DNA of 64,000 nucleotides, taken from the NCBI RefSeq assembly GCF_900128895.1, contig NZ_FSQW01000001.1, positions 744,001-808,000 of the forward strand, read 5' to 3'. The DNA comes from Parasphingorhabdus marina DSM 22363 (GTDB taxonomy: Bacteria > Pseudomonadota > Alphaproteobacteria > Sphingomonadales > Sphingomonadaceae). A program made the translations under genes and the position numbers. Shown piece after piece: positions 933 to 62,315 of the stretch. A model generated the notes under the pieces. The model was given only the letters and a program-made list of their open reading frames with translations, did no database searches and was not told where the DNA came from. The stretch's first letter is position 1; each line of letters opens with the position of its first letter.

Positions 933-1565
933 TCATGGCTCGCCATCTTCGGTTGGCTTGTCTGTGGGGGTCTGCCACTGAAAGGCCTTGATCAGCTCCA
1001 TCAGGGCTTCCTGTGCCGGTTCATCAATATGCTGCGGATATGATGCGATCAGCCGCGCATCCCAATAGCCATAGTCAATTGCGGTCAGGCTGAAATGCCA
1101 GGGTGTCTTGTCCTTCTCTCCGTCAAAAATGCCCTGAAAGGCTTCGAGGTCCGGTCGGCCGGAGACGAAATAGTCTCCCTCGGACATGATGGACGCGCTG
1201 GAATAGTGCGAGAGCAGATCCGGCTTGACGATAAGATAGTGATTTTTCGCGTCGAGATCTTCCAGATGCACCACGGCAATCTTGATATCGACAATTTGGC
1301 CCTCAATCTCTTTAACATAACCGATCTCGAAATTGTTGCCGCTGAAGTCGGCCGTCATCTCGCATTCGCGCCGAAATCCGGCCACGAGAGACGGGAATGC
1401 AAAGCCGCTGTCCTTGTGCACGATCTCATAGCTGCTGCTGTCGAATTTCAGCGGATCGATCATCTGGTCTTTTCCGACCACGCACTGCGCAGCTGCCGGA
1501 ACGGAAGCAATGCCGACCAGCGCTGCTGCGGCCAGCAAAGGCCGGATGATGAATTTGCCGATCAT
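933..1565 (-). CDS. Hypothetical secreted protein, 210 aa
   Basis: The protein begins with a Sec-type signal peptide: a positive start (MIGKF), a hydrophobic alanine-rich core and a probable AxA cleavage site near residue 26 (PAAAQC). I do not recognise the mature domain. It is mixed alpha/beta in composition, with one Cys near the new N-terminus and one more at about residue 68 (RRECEMTAD), which could form a disulfide in the periplasm. It is transcribed leftward, downstream of the 119-aa hypothetical at 1591-1950 with a 25-base gap, so the two are probably one unit. Function unknown. Confidence 0.7.
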   Translation of the reverse strand: MIGKFIIRPLLAAAALVGIASVPAAAQCVVGKDQMIDPLKFDSSSYEIVHKDSGFAFPSLVAGFRRECEMTADFSGNNFEIGYVKEIEGQIVDIKIAVVHLEDLDAKNHYLIVKPDLLSHYSSASIMSEGDYFVSGRPDLEAFQGIFDGEKDKTPWHFSLTAIDYGYWDARLIASYPQHIDEPAQEALMELIKAFQWQTPTDKPTEDGEP

Positions 1566-1590: not shown

Positions 1591-1950
1591 TCAATCGTGA
1601 CAGCTCACCACCTTGAATGGCAGTTCGCTGCCATCGGTCTCGGTAATTGTCAGATATTCGCCGACCTGGAGCGGATGATCCTTGAGACGGAAAATCGTTT
1701 CATCATCATCGTCCCCAGCCCGGTAGGAAAAGGCCCAGCCTTTTGCCGAAGCAATGACAACGCCTTTCTGATCCGGTTCCCCGCGCCAGAAACGCCGGAC
1801 CTCCGGTCGTTTTTCCGCCTCTTTCAAGGCCTCGGGTTCAATATATCCGGCTTCATCGAGCGGCACGCGAAAGACATAGGCATGGGCTGCAGACCCGTTG
1901 GGATAATCAGAAGTGCGGGCCAGTTCGAGGCGGATGGTCTTCCAGGTCAT
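1591..1950 (-). CDS. Conserved hypothetical protein, 119 aa
   Basis: An acidic cytosolic-looking protein starting MTWKTIRLELART and containing RRFWRGEPDQ and GWAFSY segments. To my knowledge this pattern recurs in short conserved hypotheticals of alphaproteobacteria, but I cannot assign a Pfam family. No signal peptide or membrane segment is visible. The frame stays open upstream to a TTG at 1992, but ATG at 1950 gives the natural N-terminus; the ribosome-binding site is weak. It probably shares a transcript with the secreted protein immediately downstream. Function unknown. Confidence 0.65.
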   Translation of the reverse strand: MTWKTIRLELARTSDYPNGSAAHAYVFRVPLDEAGYIEPEALKEAEKRPEVRRFWRGEPDQKGVVIASAKGWAFSYRAGDDDDETIFRLKDHPLQVGEYLTITETDGSELPFKVVSCHD

Positions 1951-30623: not shown

Positions 30624-30727
30624 AGTGAGCACCCTATGAATAGAAAATTTCGCGGGTTATCTAAATCGCCCTCCAGTCGATCCCTCGAAATGAATGACAG
30701 AACTCACTTTTTGGTTCGTTTGGATCT

Positions 30728-30792
30728 CACGCGAAGCCGCGAAGGCGCAAAGAGGCTGTGCATCTCCTTTCGCGTCTTTGCGTCTTCGCGTG
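30728..30792. repeat. 65-base imperfect inverted repeat (CGCGAAG type)
   Basis: The outer 9 bases match perfectly (CACGCGAAG at 30728-30736, CTTCGCGTG at 30784-30792). The inner arms are built from variants of a short CGCGAAG unit and pair imperfectly. This resembles dispersed intergenic palindromes common in sphingomonads; I know of no protein that uses it. Confidence 0.7.
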
Positions 30793-30824
30793 AATCCTCT
30801 CAACACAGCGACATCAAACTGGAG

Positions 30825-30844
30825 ATTCCAGCTTTCGCTGGAAT
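30825..30844. repeat. REP-type hairpin upstream of ruvB
   Basis: ATTCCAGC, a TTTC loop and GCTGGAAT form a perfect 8-base-pair stem followed by GACG. The stem-TTTC-stem-GACG layout is that of REP palindromes in related genomes. It ends 24 bases before the ruvB start. Confidence 0.75.
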
Positions 30845-30868
30845 GACGAAGTGGGTAGAGCATCAGGC

Positions 30869-54489: not shown

Positions 54490-55082
54490 CCCTTGCGCTC
54501 CTCTTCCTCGCCCAGGCGGCCACAGCCACTCCCGCACCAGCGCCATATCCGGCGGCATCGGTGCTGGATGCCTTTGGCGACGCCTGCCGGAACATTCAGG
54601 ATATCGCGCAGGTCGAGACAGACCTCGTCGATCAGGGCTGGGCCGCCGAAATACCGCCGGCTGACAGCCCGCTCGGCAAGCTGCTCGCGATTGGCCGTGC
54701 GCAGGCGGAGCAGGTTCTCGACGGTCCCGATGACCGGATGTCCGACACCAGCGTGTTTACGAAGACCGTTAGCGGCGAACGGCTCGATATCATCCTGTCG
54801 CAGGTCGAATCCGAGGGGACGATGGTCAATGGCTGTCGGCTCTATGATGTTGACGAGACCCGGAAGATCAGTCCGGAAGACGGCGCGAAATGGATCGACC
54901 GTGCAGCAAACCGGAGCGTCGAGCGGGAGGAAATCTCGCTGACCAACTGGTCGCCGGGCTATGACACCAGCCATGACAGTTTCGAGATTTTTTACGTGCC
55001 GGAAGGCAGCCCGGTTATTGCCCTGACGCAATTTCACGGCATCGCACTGAAAGCAGATTTTGTTGGAGAAACCGAAAAATGA
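54486..55082 (+). CDS. Hypothetical secreted protein, 198 aa
   Basis: The N-terminus ([20 protein letters not shown]) looks like a short signal peptide with cleavage near residue 14. The mature part is acidic, with two Cys (GDACRNI, VNGCRLY) that could pair in the periplasm. The start overlaps the 33-codon ORF and its stop overlaps the sucD start (ATGA), so it is embedded in the TCA operon by coupling on both sides. I recognise no family; function unknown. Confidence 0.65.
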
Positions 55083-55969
55083 GCATACTCATCGACAAGA
55101 ACACCAAGGTCATCACCCAGGGGATGACCGGCAATACCGGCACGTTCCACACCGAACAGGCACTGGCCTACGGGACCCAGATGGTCGCTGGCGTGACGCC
55201 GGGCAAGGGCGGTACCGAACATCTTGGCCTGCCCAATTATGATACGGTCCACGAAGCCAAGGAAGCGACCGGCGCAACGGCGTCGGTGGTCTATGTCCCG
55301 CCGCCATTTGCCGCGGACTCCATCCTTGAAGCGATTGATGCCGAGATCGAACTGATCGTCGCGATTACCGAAGGCGTGCCGGTGCTCGACATGGTTCGCG
55401 TCAAGCGCGCGCTGCAGGGCAGCAAGTCGCGCCTGATCGGTCCCAATTGCCCCGGTGTATTGACACCTGATGAATGCAAGATCGGCATCATGCCGGGCAG
55501 CATCTTCCAGAAAGGCTCGGTTGGCGTGGTTTCCCGGTCCGGGACGCTGACTTATGAAGCGGTCCATCAGACCACGGCGGTTGGCCTCGGTCAGACCACC
55601 GCGGTGGGCATTGGCGGTGACCCGGTCAACGGCACCAATTTCATCGACGTGCTGGAACTGTTCCTTGCCGATGACGAGACCAAGTCGATGATCATGATCG
55701 GCGAAATTGGCGGCAGCGCGGAAGAAGAAGCCGCGCAGTTCCTCGCCGACGAAGCGAAAAAGGGCCGCAGCAAGCCGACCGTTGGCTTCATCGCCGGCCT
55801 GACCGCCCCTCCGGGACGCCGCATGGGCCATGCCGGCGCGATCGTTTCCGGCGGCAAGGGCGGCGCAGAAGACAAGATCGCGGCCATGGAAGCCGCCGGC
55901 ATCCGAGTCTCGCCTTCGCCGAGTGAGCTGGGCACGACACTCGACGCCATGCTGAAGGAGATGGTTTAG
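55079..55969 (+). CDS. sucD: Succinyl-CoA ligase, alpha subunit
   Basis: A 296-residue SucD, which with SucC converts succinyl-CoA to succinate and makes a nucleoside triphosphate. The CoA-binding fold begins [31 protein letters not shown] follows, and the phosphorylated His lies in [12 protein letters not shown] near residue 247. The partner gene sucC is not in the window. ATG 55079 overlaps the stop of the preceding secreted protein gene. A GIY-YIG gene and palindromes separate it from sucA. Confidence 0.97.
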
Positions 55970-55989
55970 TGCATCATGATTACTCTGTT

Positions 55990-56056
55990 CCCCGGCGCAG
56001 GCCGGGGTCCAGAATGTGCGCATCTGCCAGACTGGGGCCCGCCCTTCGGTGCGGAA
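55990..56056. repeat. REP-type hairpin pair upstream of GIY-YIG gene 1
   Basis: The first hairpin is CCCCGGC-GCAG-GCCGGGG (55990-56007), followed by TCCAG. After 20-25 bases comes CTGG and an imperfect hairpin in the opposite sense with loop CTTC (about 56037-56056). The same head-to-head plan occurs on the other side of the gene at 56364-56428. Confidence 0.75.
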
Positions 56057-56063
56057 AATTGCA

Positions 56064-56357
56064 GTGACAAAACCTGGCTATGTTTACATCATGGCCAACA
56101 AGAGAAACGGAACAATTTATCTGGGTGTTGCAAGCGATCTGCCAAAGCGCATTTATGAACACAGGAACGGTTTGATCGAGGGATTTACCCAAAAATATGG
56201 ATGCAAAATGCTGGTCTGGTTTGAACAATATGACGACTTGGAAGAGGCTCGGGCCGCAGAATTGCGCATGAAAAACTGGAACCGCCAGTGGAAGTTGAAA
56301 CGCATTGAACGGATGAACCCGGAGTGGCGGGATTTGTGGGATGAAATTGCAAGATGA
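56064..56357 (+). CDS. Small GIY-YIG nuclease-domain protein (copy 1)
   Basis: A 97-residue protein that is just one GIY-YIG domain. The two signature strands read GYVYIMA and GTIYLGV, followed by the catalytic Arg region KRIYEHR and a Glu in ARAAELRMKNW. Such UPF0213/SLX1-like proteins are presumed structure- or junction-specific DNA nucleases, but few have a known role. I place the start at GTG 56064, in the same GTGACAAAA context as copy 2; earlier in-frame codons lie in repeat sequence. It lies alone between sucD and sucA, flanked by REP-type hairpins. Confidence 0.85.
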   Translation: MTKPGYVYIMANKRNGTIYLGVASDLPKRIYEHRNGLIEGFTQKYGCKMLVWFEQYDDLEEARAAELRMKNWNRQWKLKRIERMNPEWRDLWDEIAR

Positions 56358-56363
56358 TTGGTT

Positions 56364-56428
56364 CCCTGCCGAAGGGCAGGGTCCAGGCGATTGCACAGGA
56401 CTTTTCTGGACCCCGCCCTTCGGCGGGG
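56364..56428. repeat. REP-type hairpin pair downstream of GIY-YIG gene 1
   Basis: CCCTGCC-GAAG-GGCAGGG (56364-56381) then GTCCAG, about 20 bases, CTGGA and CCCCGCC-CTTC-GGCGGGG (56411-56428). Both stems are perfect 7-mers. Loop GAAG of the first is the reverse complement of loop CTTC of the second, so the units are inverted copies. Confidence 0.85.
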
Positions 56429-56448
56429 CACGATGATCGGAACTAGAT

Positions 56449-59232
56449 ATGGGCATTGAAAATCAGGAATTCGGCGTAGGTACCGAAAAGGAACCCGGTC
56501 CCAGCTGGCAGAAGAAGCACTGGCCGATCGATGATGCGGACGAGCTGAACAGCGCGCTCGATCCGACGGCCATGGGTATCGAGATCAAGACTGCGGCGGC
56601 GAAAGCCGGCACGGCGATGTCCGATTCCGAGGTGGAACTGGCAGCGGAAAAATCGATCCGGGCGATGATGCTGATCCGCACCTATCGGGTGCGCGGACAT
56701 CTCGGCGCCAATCTCGATCCGCTGGGTCTGTCCAAGCTCGAAGAACCGGCTGACCTGACTCCCGAATTTCACGGCTTCAAGGCCGACGAGATGGACAAGC
56801 CGGTTTATCTCGGTGGCGTACTGGGTTTTCAGCATGCCAGCATTCGCGAGATCGAAGCGGTTCTGCGCGCCAATTATTGCGGGTCGGTGGGGCTCGAATA
56901 TATGCATATCGCCGATACCGAGGAACGGCGCTTTCTGCAGGACCGGATGGAGGGCAAGGACGCCGCCATCCAGTTTACTCCGGAAGGCAAGAAGGCGATC
57001 CTCAACAAGGTGATCGAGGGCGAGGAATATGAAGCGTTTCTCGGTCGCAAATATGTCGGCACCAAGCGCTTTGGCCTCGATGGCGGGGAGTCGATGCTGC
57101 CGGCGCTGGAAAACATTATCAAATATGGCGGCCAGTCCGGCGTACGCGACATTGTCTACGGCATGGCCCATCGCGGCCGGCTGAACATTCTCGCGAACGT
57201 GATGGCCAAGCCCTACAAGGTGATCTTTCACGAATTTCACGGCGGGTCCGCCAATCCCGAAGATGTCGGCGGTTCGGGCGATGTCAAATATCATCTCGGC
57301 ACGTCGAGCGACCGCGAATTCGACGGGATCAACGTGCACATGTCGCTGGTGCCCAATCCCTCGCATCTCGAAGCCGTGGATCCGGTGGTGCTCGGCAAGG
57401 CCCGGGCCCAGCAGGTGGCGCGCGATGACCTTTCCAAGCACGAGCAGGTGCTCCCGGTTCTGATCCACGGCGATGCGGCCTTTGCCGGCCAGGGTATCGT
57501 CTGGGAATGTCTCGGCTTTTCCGGCATCCGCGGATATAATACCGGCGGATGCATCCACTTTGTGATCAACAACCAGATCGGCTTCACGACCAGCCCGCAA
57601 TTTGCGCGGTCTTCGCCCTATCCGTCGGATGTGGCCAAGGGTGTTCAGGCGCCGATTTTTCACGTCAATGGCGATGATCCCGAAGCGGTGACCTTTGCCT
57701 GCAAGATCGCGATCGAGTTCCGTCAGCGTTTTGGCCGTGATATTGTGATCGACATGTGGTGCTATCGCCGCTTCGGTCATAATGAAGGCGACGAGCCGGG
57801 CTTCACCCAGCCGATCATGTATGCCGCGATCAAGAAACATCCCAAGGTCAGCAAGCTTTACGAGCAGCGCCTGATCGAGGAAGGCGTAATTGATGCGGAC
57901 TGGGGATCGGCGACACGCAAGGCCTTTGCCGAACATCTCGAAGGCGAGTTCAAGGCCGCATCGGATTATGAACCCGACAAGGCCGACTGGTTTGGCGGAC
58001 GCTGGCAGGGGTTGCATGCACCGGCTGATCCGGAAACCGCGCGGCGCAATGTCGATACCGCGATTGACGGAAAATTGTTCGACAGCCTCGGCCGCACCCT
58101 GACCACGGTTCCCGATGGTCACCAGATCCACAAGACTCTGGGCCGGGTGCTCGATGCGAAAAAGAAGATGTTCGACAGCGGCGAGAATTTCGACTGGGCG
58201 ACCGGCGAAGCGCTGGCCTTCGGATCGCTGGTCTCGGAAGGGTATGGCGTTCGCCTGTCCGGCCAGGACAGTGGCCGCGGCACCTTTTCGCAGCGCCATG
58301 CTGTCTGGGTCGACCAGAACACGGAAGCCAAACATATTCCGCTCGACACCGTACCACATGGCCGGTTTGAGGTGCTCGACAGCCCGCTGAGCGAATATGG
58401 CGTGCTGGGTTTTGAATATGGCTATGCCGGTGCGGATCCGAAAACGCTGGTCCTTTGGGAAGCGCAATTTGGCGATTTTGCCAATGGCGCGCAGATCATG
58501 ATCGACCAGTTTGTCGCCTCGGGCGAAGCCAAATGGCTGCGTGCCAACGGTCTCGTGATGCTGTTGCCGCATGGCTATGAAGGGCAGGGACCGGAGCACA
58601 GTTCGGCGCGGCTTGAGCGATTCCTGCAGCTCTGTGCGCAGGACAATATCCAGGTTGCGAACATCACCACACCGGCCAATTATTTCCACGTGCTGCGCCG
58701 GCAGATGCTGCGCAGCTTCCGCAAGCTGCTGGTGATCATGACACCGAAATCGCTGCTGCGTCACAAGATGGCGGTGTCCACGGCCGAGGAATTCCAGGGC
58801 GACCATCATTTCATGCGGATCAAGTCGGATACCAGTCCGCCCGCGGACAAGGATATCAGGCGGCTGGTGCTGTGTTCGGGCAAGGTTGCCTATGACCTGA
58901 TCGAGGCACGCGACGCGGCCAGGGACAAGAATACGTCCATCGTCCGTATCGAACAGCTCTACCCCTTCCCGTCGGAACCGCTGGTGGTGCGTCTGAAGCG
59001 GATGAAAAATCTCGAGACTTTGGTCTGGGCACAGGAAGAGCCGCGCAACAATGGCAGCTGGCATTTTGTCCGGCCCTATCTGGAGGACTGTCTGGAGCAG
59101 GCCGGGGTGGGTCCGGTGGAACCGGTCTATGCCGGCCGGGTGGCGTCTGCGTCACCGGCGACCGGACTGGCATCGCGGCACAAGGAGCAGCAGGAAAAAC
59201 TGGTCGCGGAAGCATTGGGGCACGCAAACTAG
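56449..59232 (+). CDS. sucA: 2-oxoglutarate dehydrogenase E1 component
   Basis: A 927-residue ThDP-dependent E1 that decarboxylates 2-oxoglutarate and transfers the succinyl group to the lipoyl arm of SucB. Key stretches are YRVRGHLGANLDPLG, GMAHRGRLNILANV, the ThDP/Mg motif LIHGDAAFAGQG to VINNQIGFTT, and HNEGDEP. The C-terminus has the usual LLPHGYEGQGPEHSSARLER. Length is standard. ATG 56449 gives the normal start. It precedes sucB by 49 bases with no gene between. Confidence 0.97.
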   Translation: MGIENQEFGVGTEKEPGPSWQKKHWPIDDADELNSALDPTAMGIEIKTAAAKAGTAMSDSEVELAAEKSIRAMMLIRTYRVRGHLGANLDPLGLSKLEEPADLTPEFHGFKADEMDKPVYLGGVLGFQHASIREIEAVLRANYCGSVGLEYMHIADTEERRFLQDRMEGKDAAIQFTPEGKKAILNKVIEGEEYEAFLGRKYVGTKRFGLDGGESMLPALENIIKYGGQSGVRDIVYGMAHRGRLNILANVMAKPYKVIFHEFHGGSANPEDVGGSGDVKYHLGTSSDREFDGINVHMSLVPNPSHLEAVDPVVLGKARAQQVARDDLSKHEQVLPVLIHGDAAFAGQGIVWECLGFSGIRGYNTGGCIHFVINNQIGFTTSPQFARSSPYPSDVAKGVQAPIFHVNGDDPEAVTFACKIAIEFRQRFGRDIVIDMWCYRRFGHNEGDEPGFTQPIMYAAIKKHPKVSKLYEQRLIEEGVIDADWGSATRKAFAEHLEGEFKAASDYEPDKADWFGGRWQGLHAPADPETARRNVDTAIDGKLFDSLGRTLTTVPDGHQIHKTLGRVLDAKKKMFDSGENFDWATGEALAFGSLVSEGYGVRLSGQDSGRGTFSQRHAVWVDQNTEAKHIPLDTVPHGRFEVLDSPLSEYGVLGFEYGYAGADPKTLVLWEAQFGDFANGAQIMIDQFVASGEAKWLRANGLVMLLPHGYEGQGPEHSSARLERFLQLCAQDNIQVANITTPANYFHVLRRQMLRSFRKLLVIMTPKSLLRHKMAVSTAEEFQGDHHFMRIKSDTSPPADKDIRRLVLCSGKVAYDLIEARDAARDKNTSIVRIEQLYPFPSEPLVVRLKRMKNLETLVWAQEEPRNNGSWHFVRPYLEDCLEQAGVGPVEPVYAGRVASASPATGLASRHKEQQEKLVAEALGHAN

Positions 59233-59281
59233 GTTTGAAATTGGAGCGGAGTGATCCGCCGATGAAAGTGAGCATGAGATT

Positions 59282-60511
59282 ATGGCAACAGATGTAAAAG
59301 TTCCGGTTCTGGGCGAATCCATTACCGAAGCCACATTGGGCGAATGGCTGAAGCAGCCCGGCGATGCCGTGGAAGCGGACGAGCCGATTGCGAGCCTGGA
59401 AACCGACAAGGTCGCGCTGGAAGTTCCCGCGCCGGAAGCCGGTGTCCTCGGCCCGCTGCAGGTCGAAGTGGGTGATACGGTCGAAGTCGGTGCCGTGATT
59501 GCGACCATCGAGGCGGGCAACGGATCTGCTGCGAAAGCGGCGCCCGCGGCCAAGGCGGAGGCCGCGCCGGCTCCCGCTGCATCGGAAGAACCGGCGGCGT
59601 CGATGACCCTGTCCCCGGCGGTCCGCCGCCTCGTACTGGAGCATGGCGTCGATCCGAGCAAGATTTCCGGAACCGGCAAGGATGGCCGGCTGACCAAGGA
59701 TGATGTCGAGAAATATGTGAAATCCGGCACCTCGGCGCCGTTGGTCGAGAAAGGCGCGGCTACCGGTGCCGAAGCGCCGGCCGCGACGCCGGCTGCTGCT
59801 GGCGGCAACCGCAATGAGGAACGCGTGCGGATGACCCGACTGCGCCAGACCGTGGCCAAGCGGCTCAAGGACGCGCAGGACACGGCAGCTCTGCTCACCA
59901 CCTTCAACGATGTCGACATGACCGCGGTGATGGAAACGCGCAGCAAGTACAAGGAGCTGTTCGCCAGGAAACATGGCGTGAAGCTGGGCTTCATGGGCTT
60001 TTTCGCGAAGGCGGCCTGCCTCGCGCTGAAAGACGTACCGGCGGTCAATGCGCAGATTGATGGCGAGGAAATTGTCTATCACGACTATGTCGACATCTCG
60101 GTCGCGGTCAGCGCACCCAATGGTCTGGTCGTTCCGGTCATCCGCAATGCCGAGGCGATGAGCTTTGCCGATGTCGAGAATACGATCGGCGATTTCGGCA
60201 AGCGTGCGAAAGACGGCACGTTGACCATGGCGGACATGAAGGGCGGGACTTTCACCATTTCCAATGGCGGCGTGTTCGGATCGCTGATGTCGACACCGAT
60301 CATCAACCCGCCGCAGTCGGCGGTGCTCGGCCTGCACCGGATTGAGAAACGCCCGGTCGTCATGCCCGACGGGTCGATCCAGGCGCGCCCGATGATGTAT
60401 CTCGCACTGAGCTATGACCACCGCCTGATCGACGGCCGGGAAGCCGTGACCTTCCTCGTCCGGATCAAGGAAGCGATCGAGGATCCGACACGACTGCTGA
60501 TTGATTTGTAA
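59282..60511 (+). CDS. sucB: Dihydrolipoyl succinyltransferase, E2 of the 2-oxoglutarate complex
   Basis: A 409-residue E2. The N-terminal lipoyl domain has its lipoylated Lys in [10 protein letters not shown] (Lys near residue 43). An Ala/Pro linker leads to the E3-binding domain ([19 protein letters not shown], about residues 112-150) and the catalytic domain, with its active-site [12 protein letters not shown] near residue 381. It forms the core of the complex with SucA and Lpd encoded on either side. A second GIY-YIG gene separates it from lpd. Confidence 0.97.
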
Positions 60512-60519
60512 GGAATAGT

Positions 60520-60539
60520 GCTCCTGCGAAAGCAGGAGC
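60520..60539. repeat. REP-type hairpin upstream of GIY-YIG gene 2
   Basis: GCTCCTGC-GAAA-GCAGGAGC is a perfect 8-base-pair stem 9 bases after the sucB stop. Its right arm contains AGGAG placed 7 bases before the GTG start of the nuclease gene, so the hairpin and the ribosome-binding site coincide. Confidence 0.88.
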
Positions 60540-60544
60540 CCAGA

Positions 60545-60859
60545 GTGACAAAAAACGAAAGGAGACCCGAAACGAAGCCTGGTTTTGTGTACCTGATGGC
60601 CAACAAGCGAAACGGTACGCTCTATCTGGGTGTAACCAGTCGGCTGGAACAACGGGCCTGGCAGCATCGCGAAGGCTTGATGGAGGGATTCTCAAAGGAA
60701 CATGGATGTGTGAAGCTGGTGTGGTTCGAAGCGTTTGACGATATTCAGGAAGCGCGGCGCAGAGAATTGCAGATGAAGAAGTGGAAAAGGGGATGGAAGC
60801 TGGAACTGATCGAAAAAGACAATCCGCAATGGAAAGATCTTTTCGAGACACTGTTCTGA
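60545..60859 (+). CDS. Small GIY-YIG nuclease-domain protein (copy 2)
   Basis: A 104-residue GIY-YIG protein closely related to copy 1 at 56064: GFVYLMANKRNGTLYLGV against GYVYIMANKRNGTIYLGV, and a shared LVWFE segment. The catalytic Arg (LEQRAWQHR) and Glu (RRRELQMKKW) are kept, so both copies look active. GTG 60545 has AGGAG 7 bases upstream. It sits between sucB and lpd and is bracketed by hairpins at 60520 and 60870. The two copies differ enough in sequence to be separate arrivals or an old duplication. Confidence 0.87.
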   Translation: MTKNERRPETKPGFVYLMANKRNGTLYLGVTSRLEQRAWQHREGLMEGFSKEHGCVKLVWFEAFDDIQEARRRELQMKKWKRGWKLELIEKDNPQWKDLFETLF

Positions 60860-60869
60860 TCCACCCTGG

Positions 60870-60891
60870 GCTCCGGGTCTTCGCCCGGAGC
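60870..60891. repeat. REP-type hairpin downstream of GIY-YIG gene 2
   Basis: GCTCCGGG-TCTTCG-CCCGGAGC is a perfect 8-base-pair stem 10 bases after the nuclease stop and 17 bases before the lpd start. Its outer GCTCC/GGAGC matches the hairpin on the upstream side. There is no T-run, so it is not a terminator. Confidence 0.85.
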
Positions 60892-60908
60892 ACAAAGGAG
60901 CTAAAAGA

Positions 60909-62315
60909 ATGACCGACAATTTTGACTATGATCTTCTCGTAATCGGTTCCGGCCCGGGCGGCTATGTGGCGGCCATTCGCGCCGCGCAGCTGGGACTGAA
61001 AACCGCCTGTGTCGAAAGCCGCGAGACGCTCGGCGGAACCTGCCTCAATGTCGGCTGCATTCCGTCCAAGGCGATGCTGCATGCCTCGGAAATCTATCAT
61101 GAAGCCCATTCGGGGGCGCTCGAGAAATTCGGCATCAAGCTGACCGGTACAAAACTGGATCTCAAACAGATGCATGCGGAAAAGTCGAAGGCGGTGGAAG
61201 AGCTGACCGGCGGGATCGCGTTTCTGTTCAAGAAGAACAAGGTCGACTGGATCAAGGGCCATGCCGCGTTTGAAAGCGCGAACAGCGTGAAGGTCGGCAA
61301 GAAGACCGTGACCGCGAAAAACATCATGATCGCTACCGGCTCCTCGGTCACACCGCTGCCCGGCGTCGACATTGACAATAGCAAGCATGTCATCGTCGAC
61401 AGCACTGGCGCGCTCGACTTGCCCAAGGTGCCGGGCCACATGGTGGTGATCGGTGGCGGAGTGATCGGACTTGAGCTCGGATCGGTCTGGCTGCGGCTTG
61501 GTGCCAAGGTGACGGTGGTCGAATATCTCGACAAGATTCTGCCCGGCATGGACGGCGATATCCGCAAGGATGCTGCGCGCATCTTCAAGAAACAGGGTTT
61601 CGACATCAAGACCTCGACAAAGGTCACCGGCGCCAGCGTCAAGGGCAAGAAAGCCACGCTCACCATCGAACCGGCGAAGGGCGGAGATGCGGAAACGCTG
61701 GAAGCCGATGTCGTGCTGGTCGCCATTGGCCGCAAGCCCAATACCGAGGGCCTGGCGCTCGACAAGGCGGGGCTCAGTACCAATGATCGCGGCCAGATCG
61801 AAGTCGGACATGATTTCCAGACCAGCGTGCCCGGTGTCTATGCGATTGGCGATGTGACGCCCGGCCCGATGCTCGCGCACAAGGCCGAAGATGAGGGCAT
61901 TGCCGCGGCCGAATTTGTCGCCGGCCAGCAGGGAATCGTGAATCACGACCTGATTCCCGGCGTGGTCTATACCCATCCCGAAATCGCCTCAATTGGCAAG
62001 ACCGAGGAAGAGGTCAAGGAAGCGGGCATCAAATACAAGGTCGGCAAATTCCCGTTCATGGGCAACAGCCGGGCGAAGACCAATCGTGATACGGATGGCT
62101 ATGTGAAGGTCATTGCCGATGCCGAAAGCGATCGCGTACTTGGCGCACACATTATCTCGTCGCTGGCCGGCACACTTATCGCTCAGGTCACGCAGGCGAT
62201 GGAATTCGGCACCACCAGCGAGGACATCGCCTATACCTGCCACGCCCACCCGACCCATTCGGAAGCGGTGAAGGAAGCGGCGATGGCAGTGCAGGGCAAA
62301 CCGATCCACATCTGA
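60909..62315 (+). CDS. lpd: Dihydrolipoyl dehydrogenase, E3
   Basis: A 468-residue flavoprotein that reoxidises the lipoyl arm with NAD. FAD motif GSGPGGYVAAIRAAQLG, the redox-active disulfide in GGTCLNVGCIPSK (Cys near 43 and 48), the NAD motif VIGGGVIGLELGSVW and the C-terminal His-Glu pair in HAHPTHSEAVKEAA are all present. Proximity to sucAB marks it as the E3 of the 2-oxoglutarate complex. An AAGGAG site precedes ATG 60909 directly after the repeat hairpin. Confidence 0.97.
   Translation: MTDNFDYDLLVIGSGPGGYVAAIRAAQLGLKTACVESRETLGGTCLNVGCIPSKAMLHASEIYHEAHSGALEKFGIKLTGTKLDLKQMHAEKSKAVEELTGGIAFLFKKNKVDWIKGHAAFESANSVKVGKKTVTAKNIMIATGSSVTPLPGVDIDNSKHVIVDSTGALDLPKVPGHMVVIGGGVIGLELGSVWLRLGAKVTVVEYLDKILPGMDGDIRKDAARIFKKQGFDIKTSTKVTGASVKGKKATLTIEPAKGGDAETLEADVVLVAIGRKPNTEGLALDKAGLSTNDRGQIEVGHDFQTSVPGVYAIGDVTPGPMLAHKAEDEGIAAAEFVAGQQGIVNHDLIPGVVYTHPEIASIGKTEEEVKEAGIKYKVGKFPFMGNSRAKTNRDTDGYVKVIADAESDRVLGAHIISSLAGTLIAQVTQAMEFGTTSEDIAYTCHAHPTHSEAVKEAAMAVQGKPIHI

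Follow-up and report, generated by a model that had tools for sequence, protein, structure and literature searches.

Single-domain GIY-YIG nuclease genes paired with REP palindromes in Parasphingorhabdus marina and in other bacterial phyla

Introduction

In the REPtron, the closest described system, the gene of a RAYT (REP-associated tyrosine transposase, or TnpA-REP) lies between inverted repetitive extragenic palindromes (REPs). A second class, the CGTC REPs, was surveyed by Di Nocera (2013, PMC3733652) and is described in excerpts of that paper as having a stem of 8-9 bp, a loop of 4-5 nucleotides and a CCA tail, and as occurring mostly in inverted dimers; it includes dRS3 of Neisseria and RPE-4 and RPE-6 of rickettsiae, and is spread over five phyla with its centre of gravity in the Alphaproteobacteria. 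According to the same excerpts, CGTC REPs apparently lack a dedicated transposase, the few transposase associations being called fortuitous, and since no transposase adjoins them, their origin was unsettled in 2013; roles at the level of mRNA or operon are also discussed there, and the word GIY is absent from the text of these excerpts. Here we analyse 64,000 nucleotides of Parasphingorhabdus marina DSM 22363 (contig NZ_FSQW01000001.1, positions 744,001 to 808,000; "the window"), in which two small GIY-YIG nuclease genes, each placed between REPs, lie within an operon of the tricarboxylic acid (TCA) cycle.

Standalone prokaryotic GIY-YIG proteins were grouped with Slx1 in a 2006 survey (PMC1564403), excerpts of which cite a predicted repair role and describe an Slx1-like domain recently inserted in the HsdR gene of Methylococcus; the stem "palindrom" is absent from these excerpts. 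Among the papers listed in searches of open-access literature, which covers neither preprints nor most subscription journals, none was seen to link GIY-YIG proteins with REPs. What is new here is the addition of a nuclease to the CGTC REPs, as these are presented in the excerpts of PMC3733652. That nuclease and palindrome are paired we regard as close to certain; that the nuclease moves the palindromes is a claim to which we give slightly better than even credence.

Two nuclease genes and their palindromes

Gene 1 (56064..56357, plus strand, 97 residues) and gene 2 (60545..60859, plus strand, 104 residues) are single-domain open reading frames (ORFs) with GTG starts, paralogues whose proteins are 59% identical. 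In both units a CCAG-ended palindrome points towards the gene from upstream, and its mirror image, opening with CTGG, stands downstream. REP 1 (CCCCGGC-GCAG-GCCGGGG with a TCCAG tail facing the gene; 55990..56012, plus strand, model span 55984-56013) matches a covariance model at 39.2 bits (E 2.3e-7), and makes a REPIN-like pair with a degenerate inverted partner recognised by eye (CTGGGGCCCGCCCTTCGGTGCGG; 56032..56054, minus strand), for which the model gives no match at E<=1. Downstream of gene 1, REP 2 (CCCTGCCGAAGGGCAGGGTCCAG; 56364..56386, plus strand, model span 56358-56387, 32.5 bits) and REP 3 (CTGGACCCCGCCCTTCGGCGGGG; 56406..56428, minus strand, model span 56405-56434, 32.8 bits) are the first and second halves of a REPIN, a REP pair, and gene 1 therefore has REP pairs on either side, the left one with one degenerate arm. 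Gene 2 has single REPs: REP 4 (GCTCCTGC-GAAA-GCAGGAGC with a CCAG tail; 60520..60543, plus strand, model span 60515-60544, 39.6 bits, E 1.8e-7), past the tail of which the GTG start lies only 1 nucleotide away, and the inverted REP 5 (CTGGGCTCCGGGTCTTCGCCCGGAGC, tail facing the gene; 60866..60891, minus strand, model span 60865-60896, 22.1 bits, E 0.0034). The stems of the window REPs are of 7-8 bp, and their heads read TGTT, GGTT, CGTG, AGTG or TGTG, not CGTC.

The covariance model finds six sites in the window at E<=0.01, five of them touching the two GIY-YIG genes, three sites in 400 kb sampled from the rest of the genome, and 26 REPs in the whole genome at the same threshold. The original prediction of two single-domain GIY-YIG genes with palindromes on both sides is borne out by coordinates, Pfam and model alike; in this genome the palindromes are few and do not amount to an abundant REP family. 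One further REP of this structure stands alone (30818..30849, minus strand, 24.6 bits, E 0.0008), away from the two small GIY-YIG genes, and a longer palindrome (30727-30793) lies near it. The neighbouring ORFs, all on the plus strand, are presumably sucD (succinyl-CoA ligase alpha; 55079..55969) and sucA (2-oxoglutarate dehydrogenase E1; 56449..59232), to the left and right of unit 1, and sucB (E2; 59282..60511) and lpd (dihydrolipoamide dehydrogenase; 60909..62315), to the left and right of unit 2.

In Pfam the two window proteins score 57.3 and 56.1 bits for GIY-YIG (PF01541), whose curated cut-off is 22.6, and match no further domain, the HUH Y1 transposase included. The sole NCBIfam match is a weak one, of gene 1 to a group I intron endonuclease, and no relative of the nuclease was found in phages at E<=1e-5. 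Three places in the genome carry GIY-YIG, the third inside a 648-residue open frame that we take to be UvrC. Throughout 33 diverse aligned rows Y8, Y19, G21, H33, E66 and K70 are invariant, and R29 is kept in at least 90% of them; in GIY-YIG enzymes catalytic roles belong to two tyrosines, an arginine and a glutamate (and a histidine). N85, also invariant, falls outside the region aligned with UvrC structures; members of the Slx1-like group should lack the C-terminal asparagine of the UvrC lineage (PMC1564403). The fold of the gene 1 product is predicted with a pLDDT (predicted local distance difference test) of 96, the nearest folds being UPF0213 and Slx1, a branched-DNA nuclease. At E<=0.01 a sequence comparison with solved structures yields BH0048 and EF2693 alone (E 1.2e-8 and 5.6e-6), of the UPF0213, or prokaryotic Slx1-like, group, which also gives the best fold match; in sequence and predicted fold, the window proteins match this group.

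Bracketing among relatives

Relatives of the nuclease were taken from 60 genomes, that of P. marina included (39 of the 60 matched, some through a second GIY-YIG subfamily), and from a collection holding one genome per species, of which the best 80 of 411 loci were used. Once three duplicate loci (L036, L055, L056) had been set aside from 110, the flank set comprised 107 loci, which are distinct places rather than independent lineages. Scored was an inward-facing, CCA-tailed hairpin within 120 nucleotides of the gene; the controls were other ORFs of at least 100 residues in the same loci that adjoin 60 or more nucleotides free of ORFs. Such a palindrome stands upstream of 75 nuclease genes, downstream of 75, on both sides of 54 and on either side of 96, compared with 22/237 upstream and 30/219 downstream of control genes and, where controls have both gaps, 1/135 on both sides and 20/135 on either (Fisher p between 1e-22 and 4e-34). 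The relatives are thus flanked as had been predicted, and beside unrelated genes, where an equal frequency was to have undone the link, the palindromes are far rarer. Several of the 11 loci without an inward CCA palindrome show palindromes with another tail. Because the 80 loci of the first set were the best-scoring ones, a second sample was taken, of 20 high-scoring class-wide loci from other families (one reaching a contig end); here an inward palindrome lies on either side in 16/20 and on both sides in 12/20.

The hosts, many of them recorded as metagenome assemblies, include Alpha-, Beta- and Gammaproteobacteria, Desulfobacteria, Desulfobulbia, Nitrospirota, Bacteroidota, Dehalococcoidia, the candidate phyla radiation and a cyanobacterial plasmid. 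Plasmid records supplied eleven loci (L256-L266), and in most of these, palindromes near the gene were seen by eye. The Neisseria gonorrhoeae relative (L256, 55% identity) lies inside a dense array of repeats of dRS3 form, which are dRS3, or CGTC-1, by the equation given in the excerpts of PMC3733652; its record, NZ_CP119140.1, is filed as a plasmid, measures 2.17 Mb and looks like a chromosome. On the Planktothrix agardhii plasmid (L262), a relative has a type IIL restriction gene on one side and drmA (DISARM) on the other, and the repeat around it, GTCATTCTGAGTGAAACGAAGAATCTC, is a different one. One genome carries two nuclease genes in tandem (G057:C5:159050-159325 and 159628-159903), of equal scores and about 300 nucleotides apart.

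Matching of palindrome to nuclease

The structure on which the covariance model R1 rests (A3/R1) has an 8 bp stem, a 4-nucleotide loop and CCA; the head letters CGT or TGT stand at one fixed offset in 57/102 collected REPs, whose CCA tails were a criterion of selection. Compensatory changes occur in seven of the eight stem pairs, and covariation reaches 0.606 vs 0.206 in shuffles, in an alignment of 36 rows chosen as palindromes, for which reason the paired fraction is inflated. All 11 of the loci of ATTGCGAG..GCAATCC type fall into one protein clade (support 94 in the Shimodaira-Hasegawa-like approximate likelihood ratio test, in a quick tree of 97 columns), and this clade mixes Alphaproteobacteria, Gammaproteobacteria and Bacteroidota; automatic palindrome labels (A, B and C) left 18/110 loci unlabelled and were wrong for some B (L026, L061), and only the C clade was used. 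A Mantel comparison of protein with palindrome similarity, restricted to loci with a usable palindrome string (92/110) and made on the 34 that have no assignment to Sphingomonadales (two of these have no taxonomy at all), gives r 0.61, or 0.615 with taxonomy removed, a value that 0/2000 permutations reach. This correlation fits specific recognition, and also an inheritance of gene and flanks together.

A set of 20 distant single-domain GIY-YIG genes had been intended as a negative control, and was dropped as such since it proved to be bracketed by a palindrome of its own, of a different kind (CCGTTCGTCCTGAGCTTGTCGAAGGACG), in 17/20 loci of this genus-level sample by a motif written after the loci had been viewed. 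This second subfamily (YILKCxDGxFYTGHTDNLE...) goes with the palindrome family CCTGAGCTTGTCGAAGG and its variants (L277-L290, L292-L295), and among 12 class-wide loci, seven of them readable, the same kind of repeat was seen by eye in 6/7 (L317, L319-L321, L323, L324); four loci of a further set were likewise unreadable with the motif. The second palindrome is absent from the UPF0213-like loci L291, L296 and L335, three loci being too few for a control.

REP numbers and presence of the nuclease

Counts of REPs per genome were made with R1; a simple hairpin count (perfect stem of at least 7 plus CCA or CCTG) had mostly done no better than shuffles and was set aside. Across Alphaproteobacteria sampled evenly over the class, P. 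marina excluded, with the nuclease called at E<=1e-12 and R1 counted up to 19 per genome (19 meaning at least 19), the nuclease is present in 38/43 genomes with at least 10 R1 hits vs 95/341 of the others (28%), the cut of 10 having been picked after the table was seen; cuts from 1 to 15 give odds ratios of 7.3 to 19.8. Split at a single hit, the figures are 62/89 genomes with and 71/295 without R1. The exact pattern CATTCCSGCGNANGCSGGAATCCA, which represents one stem type only, gives a weaker association than R1 (nuclease in 32/50 genomes, odds ratio 4.1). Within the 59 nearest genomes REP number rises with the number of nuclease copies (Spearman 0.47, p 1.6e-4), as it does within the genus (rank correlation 0.55, p 0.001, n 31), the copies having been counted by hand with the second subfamily left out. 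Relatives hold from 0 to 104 REPs by R1; three nuclease-less genomes (G011, G018, G026) have whole-genome counts of 5, 2 and 0. Inverted REP dimers are visible in the site listings, for example in G092. The expectation that REP number follows the nuclease holds in these comparisons, and fails in the nuclease-less, REP-rich genomes considered below.

Presence and absence at matching sites

Between sufB and sufC, Azospirillum lipoferum carries REPIN, gene and REPIN, with four REPs by R1. The same gap holds no gene and no R1 match in A. ramasamyi, A. oryzae and strain B510, whose flanks are about 94% identical, nor in A. argentinense (87%), and the whole unit is thus present or absent as one; the gap of B510 has, by eye, a different and larger inverted repeat. 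On Sphingobium plasmids the gene lies between fnrL and a response regulator in seven records, once in two pieces. In TomTYG64 the gene is absent, and a single merged palindrome occupies the place where the sisters carry the gene; its 30 nucleotides are identical to the product of a deletion between CCCCGGG repeats inside both REPs. Other gene-less Sphingobium records show, by eye, another hairpin (TomTYG72), a short hairpin (TomTYG65) and a degenerate palindrome (TomTYG74). Two gene-less Shinella records were dropped as empty sites, being too diverged, and R1 silence at the Sphingobium and Shinella loci is uninformative because R1 misses palindromes there. At no site was the direction, gain or loss, polarised.

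The sucD/sucA junction holds the gene in 11 of the 30 nearest genomes of the genus (in G001 by its match in the 60-genome search, the motif test having missed it). The 19 gene-less junctions comprise 13 with a single hairpin (some degenerate, by eye), four with no palindrome and two with REPINs or remnants, and one remnant resembles the 3' end of the nuclease gene. Four of the 30 nearest genomes have the gene at sucB/lpd, and a palindrome pair or its remains marks 25/26 of the gene-less junctions (set L114-L143; 23 by a loose motif, two by eye), one having nothing. These gene-less pairs fall into three or more sequence types unrelated to one another and occur in nuclease-less genomes too; the junction may be one that insertions favour, or the pairs may serve in the mRNA. 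The original prediction noted such palindromes at no other TCA junction of the window; at the sucB/lpd junctions of relatives gene-less pairs are usual, and palindromes at TCA junctions are therefore not confined to gene copies.

Interpretation

On balance we favour the reading that the gene and its flanking palindromes are one minimal, REPtron-like mobile unit in which an Slx1-like GIY-YIG nuclease takes the place of the RAYT. Such a unit would be laid out as inverted REPs around the gene, CCA(G) tails usually inward and CGTC-like heads outward. The nuclease would recognise the hairpin or cruciform of its own REP type and nick it, and host repair or replication would then copy the unit, or a gene-less REP pair, to new intergenic gaps; movement would be driven by cutting, and gene-less REPs would be acted on in trans. 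A broader proposal, which we advance tentatively and hold at somewhat less than even, is that standalone Slx1-like GIY-YIG proteins are, as a rule, REP enzymes, with at least two subfamilies propagating their own palindromes (the CGTC type, dRS3 included, and the CCTGAGCTTGTCGAAGG type), and so form a non-RAYT class, the enzyme missing from the 2013 survey.

Several observations weigh against the mobile-unit reading. To our knowledge, no GIY-YIG enzyme joins strands or integrates DNA, which would leave the insertion step without an enzyme. P. marina itself has few REPs (26). Palindromes facing outward show an enrichment too, though a weaker one (of 110 nuclease genes, 41 have one upstream and 32 downstream, vs 25 and 33 of 371 controls), as expected if entire REPINs flank the gene; at the N. 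gonorrhoeae locus the nearest repeats (1354-1383, minus strand, and 1775-1804, plus strand) both tail away from the gene, and Rhizobium tumorigenes (L257) has no model match within 100 nucleotides of it, the nearest (1964-1996) lying about 180 nucleotides downstream. The correlation of nuclease with palindrome could arise if gene and flanks are simply inherited together. No target-site duplication is visible in A. lipoferum, where the sequence beside the gap is diverged.

REP counts add further points of this kind: R1 was built from gene flanks, and flanking REPs add a few counts each; within the genus, the contrast in REPs between nuclease-bearing and nuclease-less genomes is non-significant (p 0.07). 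No nuclease is detectable in 14 genomes with at least 5 R1 hits, one of which, G336, combines 85 exact CGTC-1 copies with no nuclease match at E<=1e-3. A genome of the same genus (g245), G414, has 26 exact CGTC-1 copies and no nuclease of the family at that threshold. In these two the nuclease may have been lost or be too diverged, or another enzyme may be at work; genomes with REPs and no enzyme are suspected for RAYT REPs as well, according to excerpts of PMC6006769.

Residence in the TCA operon is the last of these points. TCA junctions account for 32/107 loci (sucB/lpd 16, before sucA 12, mdh/sucD 4), counted by protein motifs with L016 and L098, of a single weak motif each, left out; the share is no fair census, because the loci fetched were those most like the window proteins. 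The mdh/sucD loci are L034, L037, L039 and L089, and L042, L048, L052, L057-L062, L066, L068, L072 and L085 are mostly sucB/lpd loci. Copies at these three different junctions are found in Sphingomonas, Sphingobium and others. The same-genus sucD/sucA copies present in the tree (8 of 11) form one clade, with support of 85, and have REPINs of several sequence types; other copies before sucA (L040, L045, L046 and L061) fall elsewhere. The count of 32/107 and the sucD/sucA clade make long residence a better account of the TCA copies than recent jumps, and the position of the remaining before-sucA copies in other parts of the tree implies that some occupancy is old and that some may have arisen repeatedly. 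In Sphingomonadales, many copies are old residents of the TCA operon, and the two of the window are probably such residents rather than recent arrivals. The gene was predicted not to sit at the same TCA junctions everywhere; it does not (11/30 and 4/30), although 32/107 exceeds what a free mover would lead one to expect.

Of the competing accounts, the one that survives best, which we nonetheless consider unlikely, holds that the nuclease moves nothing and acts as a caretaker, or by addiction: it would resolve REP hairpins or cruciforms in the manner of Slx1 or SbcCD, and genomes with REPs would keep it nearby. UPF0213 and Slx1 as nearest solved folds are consistent with this, as are the presence of the nuclease in most REP-rich genomes and the Slx1 grouping with its predicted repair role in the excerpts of PMC1564403. 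A caretaker working in trans, however, needs neither a bracket of its own REPs (96/107) nor tracking of their sequence, and the entire unit is gained or lost as one.

Rather less credible is that the gene is a passenger, cargo of a REPIN-ended element moved by another enzyme, with a job for the nuclease elsewhere, for instance in defence. The lack of any GIY-YIG enzyme known to us that integrates DNA argues for it, and so do the REP-rich genomes without nuclease. Random cargo would hardly be one single-domain family that keeps its catalytic residues and its place over many phyla, nor would another subfamily be expected to go with a palindrome of its own; the transposase associations of CGTC REPs, moreover, are few and fortuitous in the excerpts of PMC3733652.

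Homing to REPs, in which the nuclease would cut an existing REP or hairpin and break repair would copy the unit in, so that a target REP is required, we find improbable. Gene-less junctions that carry hairpins (13/19 at sucD/sucA and 25/26 at sucB/lpd) and the merged palindrome of TomTYG64 at the gene site of its sisters are what it would lead one to expect, but four empty Azospirillum gaps are REP-free by the model and the sucD/sucA junction lacks a palindrome in four genomes; solo palindromes may equally be scars, and the TomTYG64 form equals a deletion product of the CCCCGGG repeats. Finally, that the palindromes are selected mRNA hairpins (for processing or stability) at junctions, with the gene among them or regulated by them, would suit the unrelated pairs at sucB/lpd even in nuclease-less genomes, the 32/107 loci at TCA junctions and the roles discussed in the excerpts of PMC3733652, but is the least probable account, as it leaves unexplained why an identical arrangement recurs at other loci, on plasmids and in further phyla, and why the types match.

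The RAYT-like part that the original prediction gave to a GIY-YIG nuclease in sphingomonads is supported in part: the tests of association (flanks, co-variation, co-occurrence and empty sites) speak for it. The support is no more than partial because the system reaches beyond sphingomonads, with relatives in many phyla, because nuclease-less REP-rich genomes exist, because the test at the TCA junctions was only partly escaped and because cutting and movement are proposed. These data point to the enzyme as the partner so far missing for a common class of bacterial repeats. A nuclease beside CGTC-type REPs over many phyla makes the question of their origin testable, with a 97-residue protein and a 24-nucleotide hairpin. 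If the mobile-unit reading is true, REPs have become mobile on more than one occasion, each time through an unrelated enzyme, and mobile elements would be the true owners of many genes whose annotation reads "GIY-YIG nuclease" or "excinuclease ABC subunit C".

Comparison with known systems

Like pairs of miniature inverted-repeat transposable elements and insertion sequences, the family combines an autonomous copy with gene-less copies that have common ends, and it differs from them in having REP hairpins as its ends; neither a target duplication nor a transposase domain was found. Unlike GIY-YIG homing endonucleases of the I-TevI kind and Penelope-like elements, the nuclease has no further domain and no intron; the empty Azospirillum gaps show no REP target, and hairpins stand at other gene-less junctions. 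BH0048 and EF2693, of the UPF0213 or Slx1-like group, are described as stand-alone and repair-like, and no palindrome is linked with them in the excerpts of PMC1564403. With the REPtron the unit has in common one gene between inverted REPs, the occurrence of REPINs and, as excerpts of PMC6006769 set out for RAYTs, a REP type proper to each enzyme subclass. In contrast to the REPtron, with its HUH, Y1 enzyme and GTAG REPs, the unit has CGTC-like heads and a GIY-YIG nuclease that is unrelated to the RAYT and often present in several copies per genome; it is therefore not a REPtron by membership, the enzyme not being HUH nor the REP foot GTAG. The CGTC head described in the excerpts of PMC3733652, for which TGTC or CCTC can also stand, is absent from the window copies and common in their relatives, and the palindromes that flank the nuclease match the CGTC REPs in the stem, the loop and the CCA tail.

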